The translations under genes and the position numbers were made by a program. This document shows positions 9,279-21,189 of a DNA stretch of 64,000 bases, piece by piece; the first letter of the stretch is position 1; each line of letters starts with the position of its first letter. The DNA comes from Streptomyces sp. NBC_01262 (lineage in GTDB: Bacteria > Actinomycetota > Actinomycetes > Streptomycetales > Streptomycetaceae): the NCBI RefSeq assembly GCF_036226365.1, contig NZ_CP108462.1, forward strand, positions 7,162,501 through 7,226,500, in the 5' to 3' direction. The notes below the pieces were generated by a model. It saw nothing but the letters and a program-made list of their open reading frames with translations, was not told the origin of the DNA and searched no databases.

Positions 9279-10418
9279 GTGCTCCTGAGAACATTCGGCT
9301 GGTCGTTCGGCATCACAGCCGCCGGCCTGGCCCTGGCCGGCGTCCTCTGGGGCGCTGAGGGGCTCGCCATCGTGGCGATCCTCTCCGTACTGGAGATCTC
9401 GCTCTCCTTCGACAACGCCGTGATCAACGCGGGCATCCTGCGGAAGATGAACGCCTACTGGCAGAAGATCTTCCTGACCGTCGGTGTTCTGATCGCCGTC
9501 TTCGGCATGCGGCTGGTCTTCCCCGTCGTGATCGTCGCGATCACCGCGAAGCTCAGCCCGTGGGAGGCCGTGCAGCTCGCGATCAATGACAAGGATCAGT
9601 ACGAGAGCCTGGTCACCAGCGCCCACCCGGCGATCGCCGCCTTCGGTGGCATCTTCCTGCTGATGATCTTCCTCGACTTCATCTTCGAGGAGCGCGAGCA
9701 CCAGTGGCTCTCCTGGCTGGAGAAGCCGCTCGCCAAGCTGGGCAAGCTGGACATGCTCTCGGTCGTCATCGCGCTGACCGCGCTGCTGGTCACCTCCATG
9801 ACCTTCGCCACCGACGTGGCCCACGGCGGCGGTGACAAGAGCGCCACGGTGCTGTTGTCCGGCGTCGCGGGCCTGATCACCTACCTGGTCGTGGGCGGCA
9901 TCTCCGGCTACTTCGAGGACCGCCTGGAAGAGGGCGAGGAGGAGGCCGACGAGTCGGTCGCCGAGATCGCCAAGGGTGGCGGCACGAGCCCGGGCGCCTC
10001 CGCCGTGGGCCTGGCCGGCAAGGCCGCGTTCTTCATGTTCCTCTACCTGGAGGTCATCGACGCGTCCTTCTCCTTCGACGGTGTCATCGGCGCCTTCGCG
10101 ATCACCAACGACATCTTCGAGATGGCGCTCGGTCTCGGCATCGGCGCGATGTACATCCGGTCGCTCACCGTCTACCTGGTCCGCCAGGGCACCCTGGACG
10201 ACTACGTGTACCTGGAGCACGGCGCGCACTACGCGATCGGCGCCCTGGCGGGCATTCTCCTGGTCACCATCAAGTTCGAGATCAACGAGGTCATCACCGG
10301 CCTCGTCGGTGTCCTCCTGATCGGCGCTTCCTACTGGTCGTCGGTGGTGCGAAACCGGCGTGAAGGGGAAAGCTCAGGACAGGCGAACGACAAGGCGGAA
10401 GTCACTTCGGGAGTCTGA
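9279..10418 (+). CDS. TerC/DUF475 family integral membrane protein
   Basis: This is a 379-aa polytopic membrane protein of the TerC superfamily (DUF475 type). The signature acidic motifs are in helices: SLSFDNAVINA near residue 45 and SFSFDGVIGAF near residue 267, with further acidic residues in FLDFIFEE. About eight to nine hydrophobic segments are visible. A cytoplasmic acidic loop (EDRLEEGEEEADES) lies mid-protein. TerC proteins are proposed metal-ion transporters that interact with TerD-type proteins. A GTG start 30 bp after the second terD supports cotranscription. A terminator follows at 10452-10482. Confidence 0.93.
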   Translation: MLLRTFGWSFGITAAGLALAGVLWGAEGLAIVAILSVLEISLSFDNAVINAGILRKMNAYWQKIFLTVGVLIAVFGMRLVFPVVIVAITAKLSPWEAVQLAINDKDQYESLVTSAHPAIAAFGGIFLLMIFLDFIFEEREHQWLSWLEKPLAKLGKLDMLSVVIALTALLVTSMTFATDVAHGGGDKSATVLLSGVAGLITYLVVGGISGYFEDRLEEGEEEADESVAEIAKGGGTSPGASAVGLAGKAAFFMFLYLEVIDASFSFDGVIGAFAITNDIFEMALGLGIGAMYIRSLTVYLVRQGTLDDYVYLEHGAHYAIGALAGILLVTIKFEINEVITGLVGVLLIGASYWSSVVRNRREGESSGQANDKAEVTSGV

Positions 10419-10451
10419 TCCGGAGTCTGGGATTCCGATCGGGCAGACTCG

Positions 10452-10482
10452 CCGCCCCCTGCCGACGACCGGCAGGGGGCGG
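10452..10482 (+). terminator. terminator after terC-like gene
   Basis: A perfect 13-bp stem CCGCCCCCTGCCG (10452-10464) pairs with 10470-10482 across a 5-nt loop. Confidence 0.8.
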
Positions 10483-10509
10483 TTCGCGTCCAGGGGAGGG
10501 TGGAACGGT

Positions 10510-11247
10510 ATGTGGAAGTTCCCGGGTTTTCTGCGGCCCAGCGGCGCCGCTCAGTTCGACATCGCCAACGCGCACACCGTCGAGCTGACCCGGCGGCACC
10601 CGGTGGTGTCCCTGAGCAAGCAGGGCGCCGCCACCGGCAACCTGCGGATCAATCTGTCCTGGTCCATGCGCCCCTCCGACGGGGCCTGGGACCAGCGCCA
10701 CGGCTCCTGGCTGCGCCGCCAGCTCCAGCTCTTCAAGCCCGAGCCGGTGCAGGCCGCCGGGCCCGCCATGGTCAACGTCGACCTCGACCTGGCCTGCCTG
10801 TACGAGCTGGCCGACGGCACCAAGGGCGTCGTGCAGCCGCTCGGCGACTTCCTGGGCGACCTCGACGCGCCCCCGTACATACAGATGAGCGGCGACGACC
10901 GCTTCGGCGGCTCCTCCGGCGAGACGCTCTACATCAACTTCGACAAGCGCGAGGAGTTCAAGCGGCTGCTGGTCTTCGTCTACATCTACGACGGCACGCC
11001 CGCCTTCGACCGCACCCACGCCAAGGTCGAGATCTTCCCGACCTCCGGCCCCCGCATCGAGATCCCGCTCACCGAGCGCGAGCCCCAGGCCCGCTCCTGC
11101 GCGGTCGTCCTCATCGAGAACGTGAAGGGCGAGCTCACGGTGCGCCGCGAGGTCAAGTACGTCTACGGCTTCCAGGCCGAGCTCGACCGGCTCTACGGCT
11201 GGGGCCTGCAGTGGGGCCGGGGCTACAAGACGAGCGCCAGGCCCTAG
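10510..11247 (+). CDS. TerA-like tellurium resistance protein
   Basis: The 245-aa protein resembles the single-domain TerA-like branch of the TerD superfamily: a long amphipathic N-terminus (WKFPGFLRPSGAAQFD), a lead-in VVSLSKQGAATGNLRINL strand and a core with NVDLDLACLYEL, where TerD proteins have FDLDAS. The acidic Ca2+ loop is degenerate (MSGDDRFGGSSGETLYIN). A conserved TRR-EVKYVYGFQAELDRLYGW C-terminus closes the domain. The ATG at 10510 follows GGGGAGGG. The stop codon overlaps that of the convergent terD-like gene by two bases. A role in the same metal/stress complex is inferred from location. Confidence 0.85.
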   Translation: MWKFPGFLRPSGAAQFDIANAHTVELTRRHPVVSLSKQGAATGNLRINLSWSMRPSDGAWDQRHGSWLRRQLQLFKPEPVQAAGPAMVNVDLDLACLYELADGTKGVVQPLGDFLGDLDAPPYIQMSGDDRFGGSSGETLYINFDKREEFKRLLVFVYIYDGTPAFDRTHAKVEIFPTSGPRIEIPLTEREPQARSCAVVLIENVKGELTVRREVKYVYGFQAELDRLYGWGLQWGRGYKTSARP

Positions 11248-12298: not shown

Positions 12299-13465
12299 AT
12301 GCGCCACTTCGGGCACCTCGCGCCAGACGTACGGGATGAGCTGTTCCACCGCGAGCCGCAGGAATTCACCTCCGACTCGCCCGCGCGCACGCTCGCCGTG
12401 GCCCTGGGAGCGACCCTCTACAGCCCGGCCACCCGGACCACCCTCGCCGACGCCGTCCTCAAGCAGGCCGCGCAAGGCGTCGTCTCCATGGTGCTGTGCC
12501 TGGAGGACTCCATCGACGACCGCGAGGTCGAAGGCGCCGAGGAGAACCTCGTCCGCCAGTTCGCCGACCTCGCCGCCCGGGCCGACCGCGACCAGCTGCC
12601 GCTGCTCTTCATCCGCGTCCGCACCCCCGAGCAGATCAGCGACCTCGTCCGCCGCCTCGGCGACGACGTCCGGCTGCTGTCCGGATTCGTACTCCCCAAA
12701 TTCACCGAGGAAACCGGCGTCCCCTTCCTCGAAGCCCTCACCGCCGCCGAGCTCGCCTGCGGCCGGCGGCTCTTCGCCATGCCGGTGCTGGAGTCCCCGC
12801 AGCTGCTGCACCTGGAGACCCGCACCGAGACCCTGTACGGCATCTCGCGCACCGTCGACAAGTACCGCGAGCGGGTGCTGGCCCTGCGGCTCGGCGTCAC
12901 CGACTTCTGCTCCGCGTACGGGCTGCGCCGCTCGCCCGACATGACCGCGTACGACGTCCGGATCGTCGCCTCGGTCATCGCCGACCTGGTCAATGTGCTG
13001 GGGCGGGCCGACGGCACCGGCTTCACGATCACCGGTCCGGTGTGGGAGTACTTCAAGCACTCCGAGCGCATGTTCAAGCCGCTGCTGCGCCACAGCCCCT
13101 TCGTCCCCGAGGCGGTCGACCTGCGCCAGTCCCTGATCCAGCACGACATGGACGGGCTGCTGCGCGAGATCGAGCTCGACCGCACGAACGGCCTCCAGGG
13201 CAAGACCTGCATCCATCCGTCGCACGTACTGCCCGTGCACGCGCTCAACGTCGTCTCGCACGAGGAGTGGAGCGACGCCGTCGACATCCTCCACGAGGAC
13301 CGCAGCGGCGGCGGCGTCCTGCGTTCGGCCTACACCAACAAAATGAACGAGGTGAAGCCGCACCGCGCCTGGGCCGAGCGCACCCTGCGGCGCGCCGAGG
13401 TCTTCGGCGTGGCCCGCGACGAGATCGGCTTCGTCGAGCTGCTGTCCGCGTGCGTGCCCGCGTGA
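12299..13465 (+). CDS. HpcH/HpaI (CitE-like) aldolase/citrate lyase family protein
   Basis: This is a TIM-barrel lyase of the HpcH/CitE superfamily, 388 aa, with the typical VSMVLCLEDSIDD metal/acid motif near residue 70 and a GKTCIHPSHV motif near residue 300 that binds the acyl or carboxylate substrate. CitE-like enzymes cleave or form C-C bonds of oxo-acid thioesters. In Ter-linked operons this family has been predicted to help build a nucleoside-like metabolite. The stop TGA overlaps the GTG of the following gene (GTGA), so translation is coupled. The C-terminal 50 residues extend beyond the barrel. Confidence 0.9.
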   Translation: MRHFGHLAPDVRDELFHREPQEFTSDSPARTLAVALGATLYSPATRTTLADAVLKQAAQGVVSMVLCLEDSIDDREVEGAEENLVRQFADLAARADRDQLPLLFIRVRTPEQISDLVRRLGDDVRLLSGFVLPKFTEETGVPFLEALTAAELACGRRLFAMPVLESPQLLHLETRTETLYGISRTVDKYRERVLALRLGVTDFCSAYGLRRSPDMTAYDVRIVASVIADLVNVLGRADGTGFTITGPVWEYFKHSERMFKPLLRHSPFVPEAVDLRQSLIQHDMDGLLREIELDRTNGLQGKTCIHPSHVLPVHALNVVSHEEWSDAVDILHEDRSGGGVLRSAYTNKMNEVKPHRAWAERTLRRAEVFGVARDEIGFVELLSACVPA

Positions 13466-15927
13466 CGGGCCCGACCGGCGTCTGGACCGGCCAGTGGGTC
13501 GCCGACCGCCTCGGCATCGAGCTGAGCGGTGACGGCATCCGCGAGCTGCTCGGGCTCGCCCTGCGCCGCAACCCCAAGCGGGCCCACCTGCTGGTGTCGA
13601 ACGTGCTCGGCAAGCACGTCCCCCAGCGGCCCGCCGTCGTCCACGCCGCCGGGCACGGCCTGGGGGTGCGGGTGCGGGCCCTGCTGGGTGACGACGACGC
13701 CGCCCGGTCCGTCGTCCTCGGCTACGCCGAGACCGCCACCGGGCTCGGCCACGCCGTCGCGGACGGCCTCGCCCTCGCCCCGTACCTGCACTCCACCCGC
13801 CGCCCCGTCGCCGGCGTCCGCACGGCCGGCGGCTTCGAGGAGAGCCACAGCCACGCCACCTCGCACCTGCTCCTCCCGGAGGACCCGGGGCTCCTGGCGG
13901 GTGACGGGCCGCTCGTGCTGGTCGACGACGAGTTCTCGACCGGCAACACCGTGCTCAACACGATCACCGACCTGCACGCGCGGTACCCGCGTGAGCGGTA
14001 CGTCGTCGTGGCGCTCGTCGACATGCGGTCGGAAGCGGACCGGGGGCGCCTGCGGGACTTCGCGGCGGAGCTCGGCGCGCGGGTCGACCTCATCGCGCTC
14101 GGCTCCGGCACGGTCCTCCTGCCGGAGGGGGTGCTTGAGCGGGGGCAAGCGCTGGTGGCGGCCCACGAGGGGCTTTCCCCCACCCCGCCCCTTCCCGAAA
14201 CCGGGGCTTCGCCCCGGACCCCACTGGGGGCTTCGCCCCCAGACCCCCAGTCCTCAAACGCCGGACGGGCTGAGTTTGTCGACCTCGGCTGGCCGGCCGG
14301 CCTCCCCGACGGCGGCCGCCACGGCTTCACCCCCGCCCACCGCACCCGCCTCGACGCCGCCCTCCCCGCCATGGCGGCCAAGCTCGCCGCCGCGCTCCCG
14401 CGAACAGCGCGCCGCGTGCTCGTCCTCGGCAACGAGGAGCTGATGTACGCCCCGCTGCGGCTCGCGCAGGCCATGGAGGAGGCCCTCGGGGGCGAGGCGG
14501 AGGTCCGGTTCTCCACGACCACGCGGTCGCCCGTGCTGGCGGTGGACGACCCGGGGTACGCGATCCGCACACGTATCGTCTTCCCTGACCACGACAATCC
14601 GGCCGATGGCGACGGCGAACGCTACGCGTACAACGTCGCGGGCGGCGGCTTCGACGCGATCGTCGCCGTCGTGGACTCGGCGGGGGACACCCCCGCCCTG
14701 CAAGCCCCGGACGGGCTGCTCGCGCGGCTCGCCGGACACACAGAAAGGCTGCTGCTCGCCGTGGTGCCCTCGTACACGCCCAGCGCGCTCCCCTCCCCCC
14801 TGCGCGGCCCCGCCTTCTCCTCCTACGCGCCGGAGGAGGTCGGCTGGCTGCTGAAGGACCTGTCGGAGACGGAGCTGGAGGCGCCGACGGAGGAGCGGGA
14901 AGAGGCGATCCAGAGCGGGGGCGCGCACTACGCGGAGTCGCTGCCGGTGGAGTACCAGCCGAGCGCGGAGTACCAGGCGCTGTTCAGGGCCGCGCTGGAC
15001 ACCTCGGCGGGCCGGATGGCGCGGGCGGTCGGCGCGGTGACGGAGCTGGTGCTGGCGGAGCGGGGCCCGGACGCGGTGCTGGTGTCGCTGGCCAGGGCCG
15101 GAACCCCGGTCGGGGTGCTGATGCGCCGGTGGGCGCGGCACGCGCACGGCCTGGAGCTGCCGCACTACGCCGTCTCGATCGTGCGGGGCCGCGGCATCGA
15201 CACCACGGCGCTGCGCTGGCTCGCCGAGCACCACGACCCGGCCCAGGTGGTCTTCGTGGACGGCTGGACCGGCAAGGGCGCGATCACCCGCGAGCTGGCC
15301 GAGGCCGTCAAGCCGTACGGGAGCTTCGACCCGGAGATCGCCGTGCTCGCCGACCCCGGCGGCTGCGTACGCACCTACGGCACCCGGGACGACTTCCTGA
15401 TCCCCTCCGCGTGCCTCAACTCGACCGTGTCCGGGCTGATCTCCCGCACCGTGCTGCGCGCCGACCTGATCGGGCCGGACGACTTCCACGGCGCGAAGTT
15501 CTACCGCGAGCTGGCGGGCGCGGATGTCTCCGGGCTCTTCCTCGACACGGTCGAGGCGCGCTTCGCGGAGGTCGGCGACGAGGTCGCGCACGACGTCAAG
15601 GCACTGCAGGCCGCCGACCGCAGCCCCACCTGGGAGGGCTGGGCGGCGGTCGAGCGGATCAGCGAGGAGTACGGCATCAACGATGTCAACCTCGTCAAAC
15701 CGGGGGTCGGGGAGACCACGCGCGTGCTGCTGCGCCGCGTGCCCTGGAAGATCCTCGCCCAGCGCGGCGCCGGCGCCGACCTGGATCATGTACGCCTGCT
15801 CGCCGAGCAGCGCGGCGTCCCCGTGGAGGAGGTGGACGGCCTGCCCTACTCGTGTGTCGGGCTCATCCACCCCCGCTTCACGCGGGGCGCGACCGGCACG
15901 GACGGCAAGGCGGTAGCGGCGAAGTGA
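13462..15927 (+). CDS. fused PRTase_2-TRSP-StiP-PELOTA protein of Ter-linked pathway
   Basis: This 821-aa protein joins modules usually described separately. Residues 1-235 are a type I phosphoribosyltransferase with PRPP loop LVLVDDEFSTGNT (151-163). Residues 239-271 are a low-complexity linker encoded by a Streptomyces hairpin repeat. Residues 272-440 are a TRSP domain with the literal motif STTTRSP (351-357). Residues 450-705 are a StiP-like module (FSSYAPEEVGWLLKDL) with a second PRPP-loop-like VFVDGWTGKGAIT (597-609) and candidate cysteines 635 and 651. Residues 735-803 resemble the PELOTA-type RNA-binding domain (NDVNLVKPGVGETTRVLLRR). The GTG at 13462 is chosen because it overlaps the lyase stop. 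Family databases call StiP a cysteine protease, although the sequence also looks PRTase-like. Product of the pathway is unknown. Confidence 0.85.
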   Translation: MTGPTGVWTGQWVADRLGIELSGDGIRELLGLALRRNPKRAHLLVSNVLGKHVPQRPAVVHAAGHGLGVRVRALLGDDDAARSVVLGYAETATGLGHAVADGLALAPYLHSTRRPVAGVRTAGGFEESHSHATSHLLLPEDPGLLAGDGPLVLVDDEFSTGNTVLNTITDLHARYPRERYVVVALVDMRSEADRGRLRDFAAELGARVDLIALGSGTVLLPEGVLERGQALVAAHEGLSPTPPLPETGASPRTPLGASPPDPQSSNAGRAEFVDLGWPAGLPDGGRHGFTPAHRTRLDAALPAMAAKLAAALPRTARRVLVLGNEELMYAPLRLAQAMEEALGGEAEVRFSTTTRSPVLAVDDPGYAIRTRIVFPDHDNPADGDGERYAYNVAGGGFDAIVAVVDSAGDTPALQAPDGLLARLAGHTERLLLAVVPSYTPSALPSPLRGPAFSSYAPEEVGWLLKDLSETELEAPTEEREEAIQSGGAHYAESLPVEYQPSAEYQALFRAALDTSAGRMARAVGAVTELVLAERGPDAVLVSLARAGTPVGVLMRRWARHAHGLELPHYAVSIVRGRGIDTTALRWLAEHHDPAQVVFVDGWTGKGAITRELAEAVKPYGSFDPEIAVLADPGGCVRTYGTRDDFLIPSACLNSTVSGLISRTVLRADLIGPDDFHGAKFYRELAGADVSGLFLDTVEARFAEVGDEVAHDVKALQAADRSPTWEGWAAVERISEEYGINDVNLVKPGVGETTRVLLRRVPWKILAQRGAGADLDHVRLLAEQRGVPVEEVDGLPYSCVGLIHPRFTRGATGTDGKAVAAK
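14176..14275. repeat. Streptomyces hairpin repeat inside coding sequence
   Basis: Two back-to-back perfect hairpins, CCGGGGC-TTC-GCCCCGG (14201-14217) and TGGGGGC-TTC-GCCCCCA (14225-14241), are followed by CCTCAAACGCCGGACGGG (14252-14269). This composite is a familiar intergenic repeat of Streptomyces genomes. Here it lies within an open frame and encodes the linker between the PRTase and TRSP modules. Confidence 0.8.
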
Positions 15928-16748
15928 CCACTACGAATCTCAAGCGGGTCCTGGTCGCCAGCGACCTCGACCGCACCCTCATCTACTCCCCCTCCGCGCT
16001 CGCGTTGAGCATGCCCGACGAGTACGCCCCCCGGCTGCTCTGCGTCGAGGTCAACGAGGCGCGCCCGCTGTCCTTCATGACCGAGACCGCGGCCGACCTC
16101 GTCCAACGGCTCGCCGTCGCCGCGGAGTTCGTCCCCGCCACGACGCGCACGCGCAAGCAGTACCGGCGCATCAACCTCCCCGGGCCGATCCCGCGCTTCG
16201 CCATCTGCGCCAACGGCGGCCACATCCTCGTCAAGGGGCACACCGACCACGACTGGAACGCCGAGATGCGCCGCCGTCTGGCCGACGGCTCGGTGCCGCT
16301 CGCCGAGGTGCGCGAGCACCTCGCCGCGAACGCCGACCCGGCATGGCTGCGCAAGGAGCGCGTCGCGGAGGACCTGTTCGTCTACCTGGTCGTCGAGCGC
16401 GGCCTGATCTCCGAGGGCTGGGTCAAGGAGTTCTCCGGCTGGGCGGACGAGCGCGGCTGGACGGTCTCCCTGCAGGGCCGCAAGATCTACGCCGTCCCCA
16501 AGCCGCTCACCAAGAGCGCGGCCCTGGAGGAGGTCGTCCGCCGCACCGGCGCCGACCACGTGCTCGCCGCGGGGGATTCCCTGCTCGACGCCGACCTCCT
16601 GATGGCGGCCCACGCGGGCTGGCGCCCGGGCCACGGCGAACTCGCCGACAGCGGCTGGTCCGCCCCGCACGTCGAGCCGCTGGCCATCGCAGGTGTGGCG
16701 GCGGGCGAGGAGATGCTCCGGCGGATGCTCGCGGTCGCGGAGGCGTAA
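15924..16748 (+). CDS. HAD superfamily hydrolase of Ter-linked operon
   Basis: This is a 274-aa phosphatase of the haloacid dehalogenase superfamily. Motif I is SDLDRTLIY near residue 15 (nucleophile and acid Asp), the Lys motif lies around KPLTKSAAL, and motif IV is AAGDSLLDADLL near residue 215. A cap region sits between motifs I and III, as in sucrose-phosphatase/Cof-like members. The GTG at 15924 overlaps the preceding stop (GTGA), so it is translationally coupled to the fused PRTase. In the predicted Ter-linked pathway a HAD enzyme removes a phosphate from the nucleotide-like intermediate. Substrate not established. Confidence 0.92.
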   Translation: MTTTNLKRVLVASDLDRTLIYSPSALALSMPDEYAPRLLCVEVNEARPLSFMTETAADLVQRLAVAAEFVPATTRTRKQYRRINLPGPIPRFAICANGGHILVKGHTDHDWNAEMRRRLADGSVPLAEVREHLAANADPAWLRKERVAEDLFVYLVVERGLISEGWVKEFSGWADERGWTVSLQGRKIYAVPKPLTKSAALEEVVRRTGADHVLAAGDSLLDADLLMAAHAGWRPGHGELADSGWSAPHVEPLAIAGVAAGEEMLRRMLAVAEA

Positions 16749-19770: not shown

Positions 19771-21189
19771 TCAGCTCCAGCGGGCGACCTCGACGTTCTC
19801 CAGCACACCGAGTGCGTCGGGGACGAGCACGGCGGCCGAGTAGTAGGCACTGACGAGATACGAGATGATCGCCTTTTCGTTGATTCCCATGAAGCGCACG
19901 GACAGGCTCGGCTCGTATTCGTCCGGAATTCCGGTCTGGTGCAGGCCGATGACGCCCTGGTTGTCCTCGCCGGTGCGGAGCGCGATGATCGAGCTCGTGT
20001 TCTCCTTCGTGACGGGGATCTTGTTGCACGGGAGGATCGGAATTCCACGCCAGGCCGGAATCGAGTGGCCCTGGAAATCCACGTGATCCGGATAGAGGCC
20101 CCGGCTGTTGAACTCACGGCCGATCGCGGCGATCGCCTTCGGATGCGCCAGCAGGAACTGCGTGTTACGGCGACGGCTGATCAGCGCGTCCAGGTCGTCC
20201 GGGGTCGGCGGGCCGGCATGCGTGTTGATCCGCTGGGAGTAGTCCGCATTGTGCAGGAGGCCGAATTCCCGGTGGTTGATGAGCTCGTGCTCCTGCCGCT
20301 CGCGCAGCGCCTCGATAGTGAGCTTGAGCTGCTGCTCGACCTGGTTGTACGGCTGGTTGTACAGGTCGGCGACCCGGCTGTGCACCCGCAGCACGGTCTG
20401 GCCCACGCTCAGCTCGTACTCGCGCGGGTGGGTCTCGTAGTCGACGAAGGTGCCCGGCAGTTGCGCCTCGCCCACGTGGCCGGCGGACAGCGCGATCTCG
20501 GCCTGGCCGTACTTGTCCTGGGCCTGCCCGCCTCCGTCGAGGTACTCGGCTACGTGTGCCCGCAGCGCTTCCGACTGGCTCGCCACGGCGTCGAAGGCCT
20601 GGCGGGGGAGGGCGAGCAGGGTGACGGCGGTGGCGGCCTTGGCGGTGAAGCCCCAGGCGCCGTCGGAGGAGGCCAGCGACTCGTCGCCGAAGTGGCCGCC
20701 GTCCGCGAGGAATCCGACCACGGCCTGGCCGTCGTACTTGCCGGTGGCCAGCTTGTCGACCTTGCCGTGGGCGATCAGGAACACCTGGTCGGACGGCCGG
20801 CCCTCTTCCACGATCACTTCGCCCGGAGCGAATTCACGCTGCACGAACCGGTCCGCCAGGGCGCTGAGCACGCCCGGGTCCTCGAAACCGCGCAGCAGCG
20901 GCAGTTCCCCGAGCTCGGCCGGAATCACCCGTACCTCGGAGCCGGTCTGGATGAAATCGACCCGGCCGTCCCCCACCGAATAACTCAGCCGCCGGTTGAC
21001 CCGGTAGGTGCCGCCCGCGACCTGGACCCAGGGCAGAATCCTCAGCAGCCACCGCGAGCTGATTCCCTGCATCTGCGGAGCGGATTTCGTCGTGGTCGAC
21101 AGATTCCGCGCCGCCGCCGTACCAAGGGCCTGCTGGGGCGTTGCTTCCTCTGCCCCGGCCTCCGGCGCGATACCTGACTCAACCGACAT
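19771..21189 (-). CDS. family 2B encapsulin shell protein with cNMP-binding-like insert
   Basis: This is a 472-aa HK97-fold shell protein expected to self-assemble into a protein nanocompartment. The order is a disordered N-terminal arm (about 1-40), the first shell segment (41-92, with [20 protein letters not shown]), an inserted cyclic-nucleotide-binding-like domain (about 95-215, GGHFGDESL at 164-172), then the bulk of the shell fold with [20 protein letters not shown] and C-terminal [12 protein letters not shown]. This architecture defines family 2B. The insert lacks the Arg that normally contacts the cyclic phosphate. GGGAGGA lies 8 nt before the ATG. Family 2B shells usually enclose terpene cyclases; none is encoded nearby. 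Confidence 0.93.

Follow-up and report, generated by a model that had tools for sequence, protein, structure and literature searches.

The Ter biosynthetic module and the fused protein

A review that cites Anantharaman 2012 describes the Ter system as making a nucleoside-type signal with phosphoribosyltransferases (PRTases) and HAD phosphatases (PMC7824862). A second source lists PRTase_1 beside PELOTA_1 and credits the association of PRTase and PELOTA in Ter systems to Anantharaman and co-workers (PMC5571608), and a third gives PRTase_1 as the former Pfam name of PF11202 (PMC13109261), the StiP domain. In Bcs3, the PRTase-like CriT, which lacks a vicinal pair of aspartates (DD), moves ribose-5-phosphate from phosphoribosyl pyrophosphate (PRPP) to a hydroxyl, after which the HAD phosphatase CrpP takes off the 5′-phosphate (PMC10299916). 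Here we analyzed a stretch of 64,000 nucleotides (nt) from Streptomyces sp. NBC_01262 (NZ_CP108462.1, positions 7,162,501 to 7,226,500; hereafter the window), and in it an 821-residue protein that joins PRTase_2, TRSP, StiP and PELOTA_1 domains in one chain. The Ter biosynthetic module (Anantharaman, Iyer and Aravind 2012, as given in PMC7824862 and PMC5571608) contains the same domains as the locus studied here, i.e., PRTase_2-TRSP, PRTase_1/StiP-PELOTA, a C-C lyase and HAD, beside TerD and TerC-like genes. The window differs from it in that the two polypeptides are fused into one, the HAD gene lies downstream of the two halves rather than between them, and no dedicated ATP-grasp gene stands next door. 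We read the protein as the core of the biosynthetic module of the Ter operon in fused form, in which PRTase_2 and StiP would use PRPP and a HAD step would lead to a riboside-like stress metabolite, with a probability of about 0.6.

Translation of 13462-15927 (+ strand, as are all features of this operon) gave an 821-residue reading frame with no internal stops, and the same fused frame was found in related genomes, bearing out the description of a single polypeptide in an earlier note on this DNA. All four Pfam domains scored above cut-off in the order PRTase_2 (residues 29-216, 13546-14109; PF15609, E 2e-68), TRSP (residues 283-420, 14308-14721; PF12500, E 4e-41), StiP (residues 453-697, 14818-15552; PF11202, E 1e-107) and PELOTA_1 (residues 724-803, 15631-15870; PF15608, E 7e-35). 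The two PRPP-loop-like motifs of that note were likewise found, by translation and alignment, where it had placed them: LVLVDDEFSTGNT at residues 151-163 (13912-13950), within PRTase_2, and VFVDGWTGKGAIT at residues 597-609 (15250-15288), within StiP, the latter corresponding to a PRPP loop with D600 as its sole acid.

Predicted folds and conserved residues

Residues 441-821 (StiP-PELOTA) were modeled as a single module with AlphaFold from 66 sequences, giving a predicted local distance difference test score (pLDDT) of 92.2 and a predicted template modeling score (pTM) of 0.91. Foldseek against the PDB returned hypoxanthine-guanine PRTases (HGPRTs) and PyrR as the best matches of the StiP model (E about 1e-3). 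VIA-align placed the CriT region of Bcs3 (8a0c) first, with Z 11.4 over 196 aligned residues at 3.9 Å and 7% identity, followed by PyrR (Z 9-10) and then the HGPRTs (Z about 9). A profile alignment between StiP and PRTase_2 gave P 0.002, and none of 150 block-shuffled controls scored as high. In sequence searches, phmmer with the full protein against the PDB gave nothing useful, and CriT was not among the StiP profile matches at E up to 10. These model-based comparisons support a type-I PRTase-like fold for StiP, and not a recognizable protease. The suggestion that StiP might be a second phosphoribosyltransferase rather than a protease thus agrees with its predicted fold; it is right but already in the literature, and what this analysis usefully adds is the structural match to CriT, the predicted fold of TRSP, the counts of cysteines and the history of the fusion. 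StiP and CriT have in common the missing vicinal DD pair and a pairing with a HAD phosphatase; they differ in that StiP is joined to an L7Ae-like domain and belongs to a Ter operon, whereas CriT belongs to a capsule locus.

Residue conservation in StiP was counted in two sets, the first with 66 rows (the window protein and 65 relatives from other phyla) and the second with 158 actinobacterial rows. The VDGWTGKG loop is essentially invariant: D600, W602, T603, K605 and G606 are kept in 66/66 and 158/158 rows, and G601 in 66/66 and 157/158. S542, R545, S572 and D580 are invariant in both sets, while at position 575 the first set has Arg throughout and the second has either Arg or Lys. The conserved SxxRAGxPxG stretch at residues 542-551 (15085-15114) is the equivalent of loop 1 by position in the alignments.

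The cysteines behave differently. C635 is Cys in 156 of the 158 actinobacterial rows, as against just 7 of the 66 in the first set (window row included), in which C651 is Cys in a single row, that of the window included; the cysteine of the FHGC motif (position 678) is present in 65/66 rows of the first set and replaced by Ala or Gly in 158/158 actinobacterial rows. No cysteine is conserved across both sets, so that a family-wide cysteine nucleophile is absent. That StiP is a cysteine protease, as its family name says, so that the fusion would couple a PRTase to a protease, is accordingly very unlikely: Pfam and RefSeq names in current use speak for it, as does the near-invariance of C635, C651 and C798 in Actinobacteria, but no cysteine is kept family-wide and the predicted fold of StiP matches PRTases. 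The same counts give no support to Cys635 as a catalytic residue. Cysteines kept in one lineage only may serve some other purpose, possibly in metal binding or redox. The exchange itself is a feature of this region (about 15364-15855), Actinobacteria keeping C635, C651 and C798 with Ala or Gly at 678, and other phyla having a near-invariant Cys at 678.

In PRTase_2 the DDxxSTG PRPP loop is intact (D155/D156/T160/G161), and D155, D156, E157 and G161 are found in 70 of 71 aligned rows. TRSP, modeled alone (residues 276-440, 56 sequences; pLDDT 82.8, pTM 0.80), gave a Foldseek list in which all 50 listed matches were PRTases (E 6e-4 to 0.03). Its VIA list, at Z 8.5-9.7, held PRTases or PRTase-related entries except for one untitled entry, 7f06; a Z near 9 is only moderately above the level reached by unrelated folds, but the strength of the list lies in its uniformity. 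The corresponding stretch of TRSP, FDAIVAVVDSAGDTP, lacks a DD PRPP loop, with residue 405 being Glu in 69 of 71 rows, and the conserved residues are R286, G323, E326, R355-S356-P357, Y390 and N391. Thus the PRTase fold seen in PyrR and the HGPRTs is matched by the model of StiP (Z 9-10), which lacks the DD pair, and by that of TRSP (Z about 9), which lacks the PRPP loop. The model makes it likely that TRSP has a PRTase-like fold without a PRPP loop, which would bring the chain to three PRTase-like modules, a feature missed by the earlier note; no paper saying so was found in the literature, of which coverage was partial. By hhalign, the LVLGxxE...STTRSP pattern of TRSP aligns with VLGYAET...STRRP of PRTase_2, and we hypothesize that TRSP arose from PRTase_2 by duplication. 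TRSP and StiP have no detectable sequence link with each other (P 0.38).

The C-terminal part of the StiP-PELOTA model matches YbxF and L30e by VIA-align, and a sequence profile also ties PELOTA_1 to L7Ae (E 0.0048), in line with the description of the C-terminus as RNA-binding-like. K746, E751 and R754 are invariant and fit the L7Ae K-x-G-x-N-E-x-T-K motif, which makes RNA binding by PELOTA_1 possible. PELOTA_1 thus has the fold of the L7Ae/L30e/YbxF group and a K..GE.TR/K motif; unlike that group it is fused to a PRTase, and the L7Ae-type Asn before Glu is Gly in the window protein.

Proposed chemistry

In the reading that we favor, PRTase_2, with its intact PRPP loop, would attach phosphoribose from PRPP to an acceptor, with TRSP probably serving as a pseudo-partner, and StiP would likewise transfer phosphoribose from PRPP to an acceptor. 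One of these acceptors is perhaps derived from the product of the C-C lyase. The HAD phosphatase would then remove the 5′-phosphate to leave a riboside-like stress metabolite that Ter proteins would sense, and PELOTA, being L7Ae-like, may be an RNA-binding domain. PRPP-dependent ribosylation of one or two acceptors followed by dephosphorylation is the simplest model. Like the CriT/CrpP pair, the Ter module combines a PRTase, StiP with one acid in its loop, and an adjacent HAD gene. Several points weigh against it. The Foldseek TM-scores of StiP are modest to low (they are normalized to the two-domain query), and its PRPP-loop equivalent lacks two adjacent acids, D600 being followed by G601. 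The sequence link between TRSP and PRTase_2 is marginal, as 9 of 150 shuffles scored as high with the smaller sequence set and 1 of 120 with the larger, and the RNA-binding role of PELOTA_1 rests on homology. Moreover, the analysis identified no substrate or product, and the literature covered yielded no biochemistry.

Two further proposals share parts of this model. StiP-PELOTA might act on RNA, as a phosphoribosyltransferase carrying out O-ribosylation or base exchange, and not on a small molecule. The invariant K746, E751 and R754 of the L7Ae-like domain would suit such a role, as would the fact that CriT, the closest structural match, makes O-glycosidic bonds and that PyrR, an RNA-binding PRTase, is also close; the clustering with a C-C lyase and a phosphatase favors a metabolite, however, and no RNA target is known, so that we regard an RNA-directed enzyme as improbable. 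A more elaborate arrangement of three PRTase-fold modules would combine an active PRTase_2, a dead duplicate TRSP as its pseudo-partner, and a CriT-like StiP that would form an O- or C-riboside with an RNA or a metabolite bound to the L7Ae-like domain, with HAD finishing the reaction. This is a speculative proposal that we consider unlikely in its entirety; if true, a stress signal of bacteria would be made by PRPP-dependent chemistry of a new sort.

These genes are carried by thousands of genomes and plasmids (the matching plasmid records alone number 2567), often under the label ‘cysteine protease StiP’, which is a misleading name. Structure prediction gives concrete form to the PRTase assignment and suggests that TRSP is a third PRTase-like fold. 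The pair of CriT and a HAD phosphatase, known from experiment, offers a testable chemistry that would help to pin down the proposed Ter metabolite, a problem dating from 2012, and the Streptomyces-type protein, fused as it is in nature, lends itself to such work as one convenient construct.

Fusion history and operon surroundings

The distribution of the fusion was scored ORF by ORF (open reading frame) with BLAST, asking whether PRTase-TRSP and StiP-PELOTA matches share one frame in the fetched genome DNA; the length of stop-to-stop frames was dropped as a proxy, as spurious high-GC frames inflate it. A survey of whole genomes detected StiP in 141 of the 150 genomes sampled from the window’s family, and in 69 of the 296 from its class. 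The fused architecture was present in 33/34 genomes of the window’s genus and 38/38 of a sister genus, other genera being mixed or split. In Actinobacteria the two halves abut and fused and split states alternate. The split forms have a stop and a start codon at the position of the linker (residues about 430-452, 14749-14817), often with a 4-nt overlap at ATGA- or GTGA-type junctions. In a quick tree of 160 StiP proteins, with weak support for many branches and with long outgroup branches that come together, 108 proteins were fused, and the fused/split label required 15 changes, at least eight of them forced by well-supported branches, as compared with 44 for shuffled labels. On the basis of the genus-level counts and these label changes, the fusion is genuine, clustered and evolutionarily labile. 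It joins in frame two neighboring genes that often overlap, and such joining has arisen or been broken many times within Actinobacteria. One genome (G219, locus L184) looked split and was left out of the tree, as the break falls inside StiP; in this genome, which is 76% complete, StiP is spread over two frames, likely by frameshift or decay. At two other loci (L183 in G151 and L006 in G130) the StiP gene is divergent, and the DNA fetched there shows no match to PRTase_2-TRSP.

Outside Actinobacteria, 82 loci came from scanning contigs of named genomes together with viral contigs, with both genes on the fetched DNA in 70. None of these 70 was fused, and the gap between the two genes is typically about 700 nt and mostly HAD-sized. 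The gene in the gap is annotated as hypothetical in Azospirillum, as trehalose phosphatase in Pseudomonas and as haloacid dehalogenase in Acinetobacter phage ME3, where the StiP gene itself is annotated ‘phosphoribosyl transferase’. Tsukamurella has the same order as the window, lyase > PRTase-TRSP > StiP-PELOTA > HAD, but as separate overlapping genes.

These comparisons bear on two accounts of the fusion. That a frameshift in the assembly has made one 821-residue frame out of two genes could draw on the separate genes of some close relatives, including one genome of the window’s own genus (G283); the in-frame fusion in 33/34 genomes of that genus and in all 38 of the other refutes it, so that the fusion is no local frameshift, and the chance of such an artifact is negligible. 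Substrate channeling between two PRTase active sites, in favor of which one may cite that both halves form one chain in 108/160 proteins of the tree set and are neighbors in the actinobacterial loci examined, is weakened by the lability of the fusion. Given the repeated switching between fused and split states in Actinobacteria, one chain is not required; both genes remain intact in the split forms, and no result makes the product of one domain the substrate of the other, so that channeling appears doubtful. As the joining arose or broke many times, the fusion probably ensures 1:1 stoichiometry or proximity and not a new function.

The fused ORF starts with GTG, which overlaps the TGA of the upstream gene (12299-13465, +) for a C-C bond lyase with a CitE-like TIM barrel (PF15617, E 7e-124), and the downstream ORF (15924-16748, +) begins within its stop, at 15924. 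The lyase and HAD genes thus stand in an operon with the fused ORF, near genes with TerD and TerC/DUF475 domains by Pfam, which lie upstream. The downstream ORF gave no match in the Pfam scan; we take it for a HAD-type phosphatase on the strength of a weak match to the SPP subfamily (E 5e-4), a DxDxT-like motif at the N-terminus (VASDLDRTLIY) and its conserved position. A longer frame from 12496 (1143 amino acids) in the program-made ORF list was rejected as spurious because it would overlap the well-supported lyase gene. An ATP-grasp gene (PF15632) is present as an accessory in the Pseudomonas locus and was not treated as required for the Ter module; none adjoins the window locus, the genome-wide profile matches lying elsewhere in the chromosome, and none is listed in the actinobacterial Tsukamurella locus either. 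The best ATPgrasp_Ter match in this genome is remote from the locus and was taken as a generic ATP-grasp enzyme instead of a dedicated Ter one, since the profile also matches in 13 of 14 control genomes. Also in the Ter region is a 295-residue ORF without a Pfam match (10360-11247, +), at the place where Tsukamurella has a ‘hypothetical protein’ (L056:3615-4814). Finally, 19771-21189 on the reverse strand encodes an encapsulin shell protein (PF19307, SrpI-like, E 1.5e-138) with a cyclic-nucleotide-binding domain (cNMP_binding, E 5e-15).

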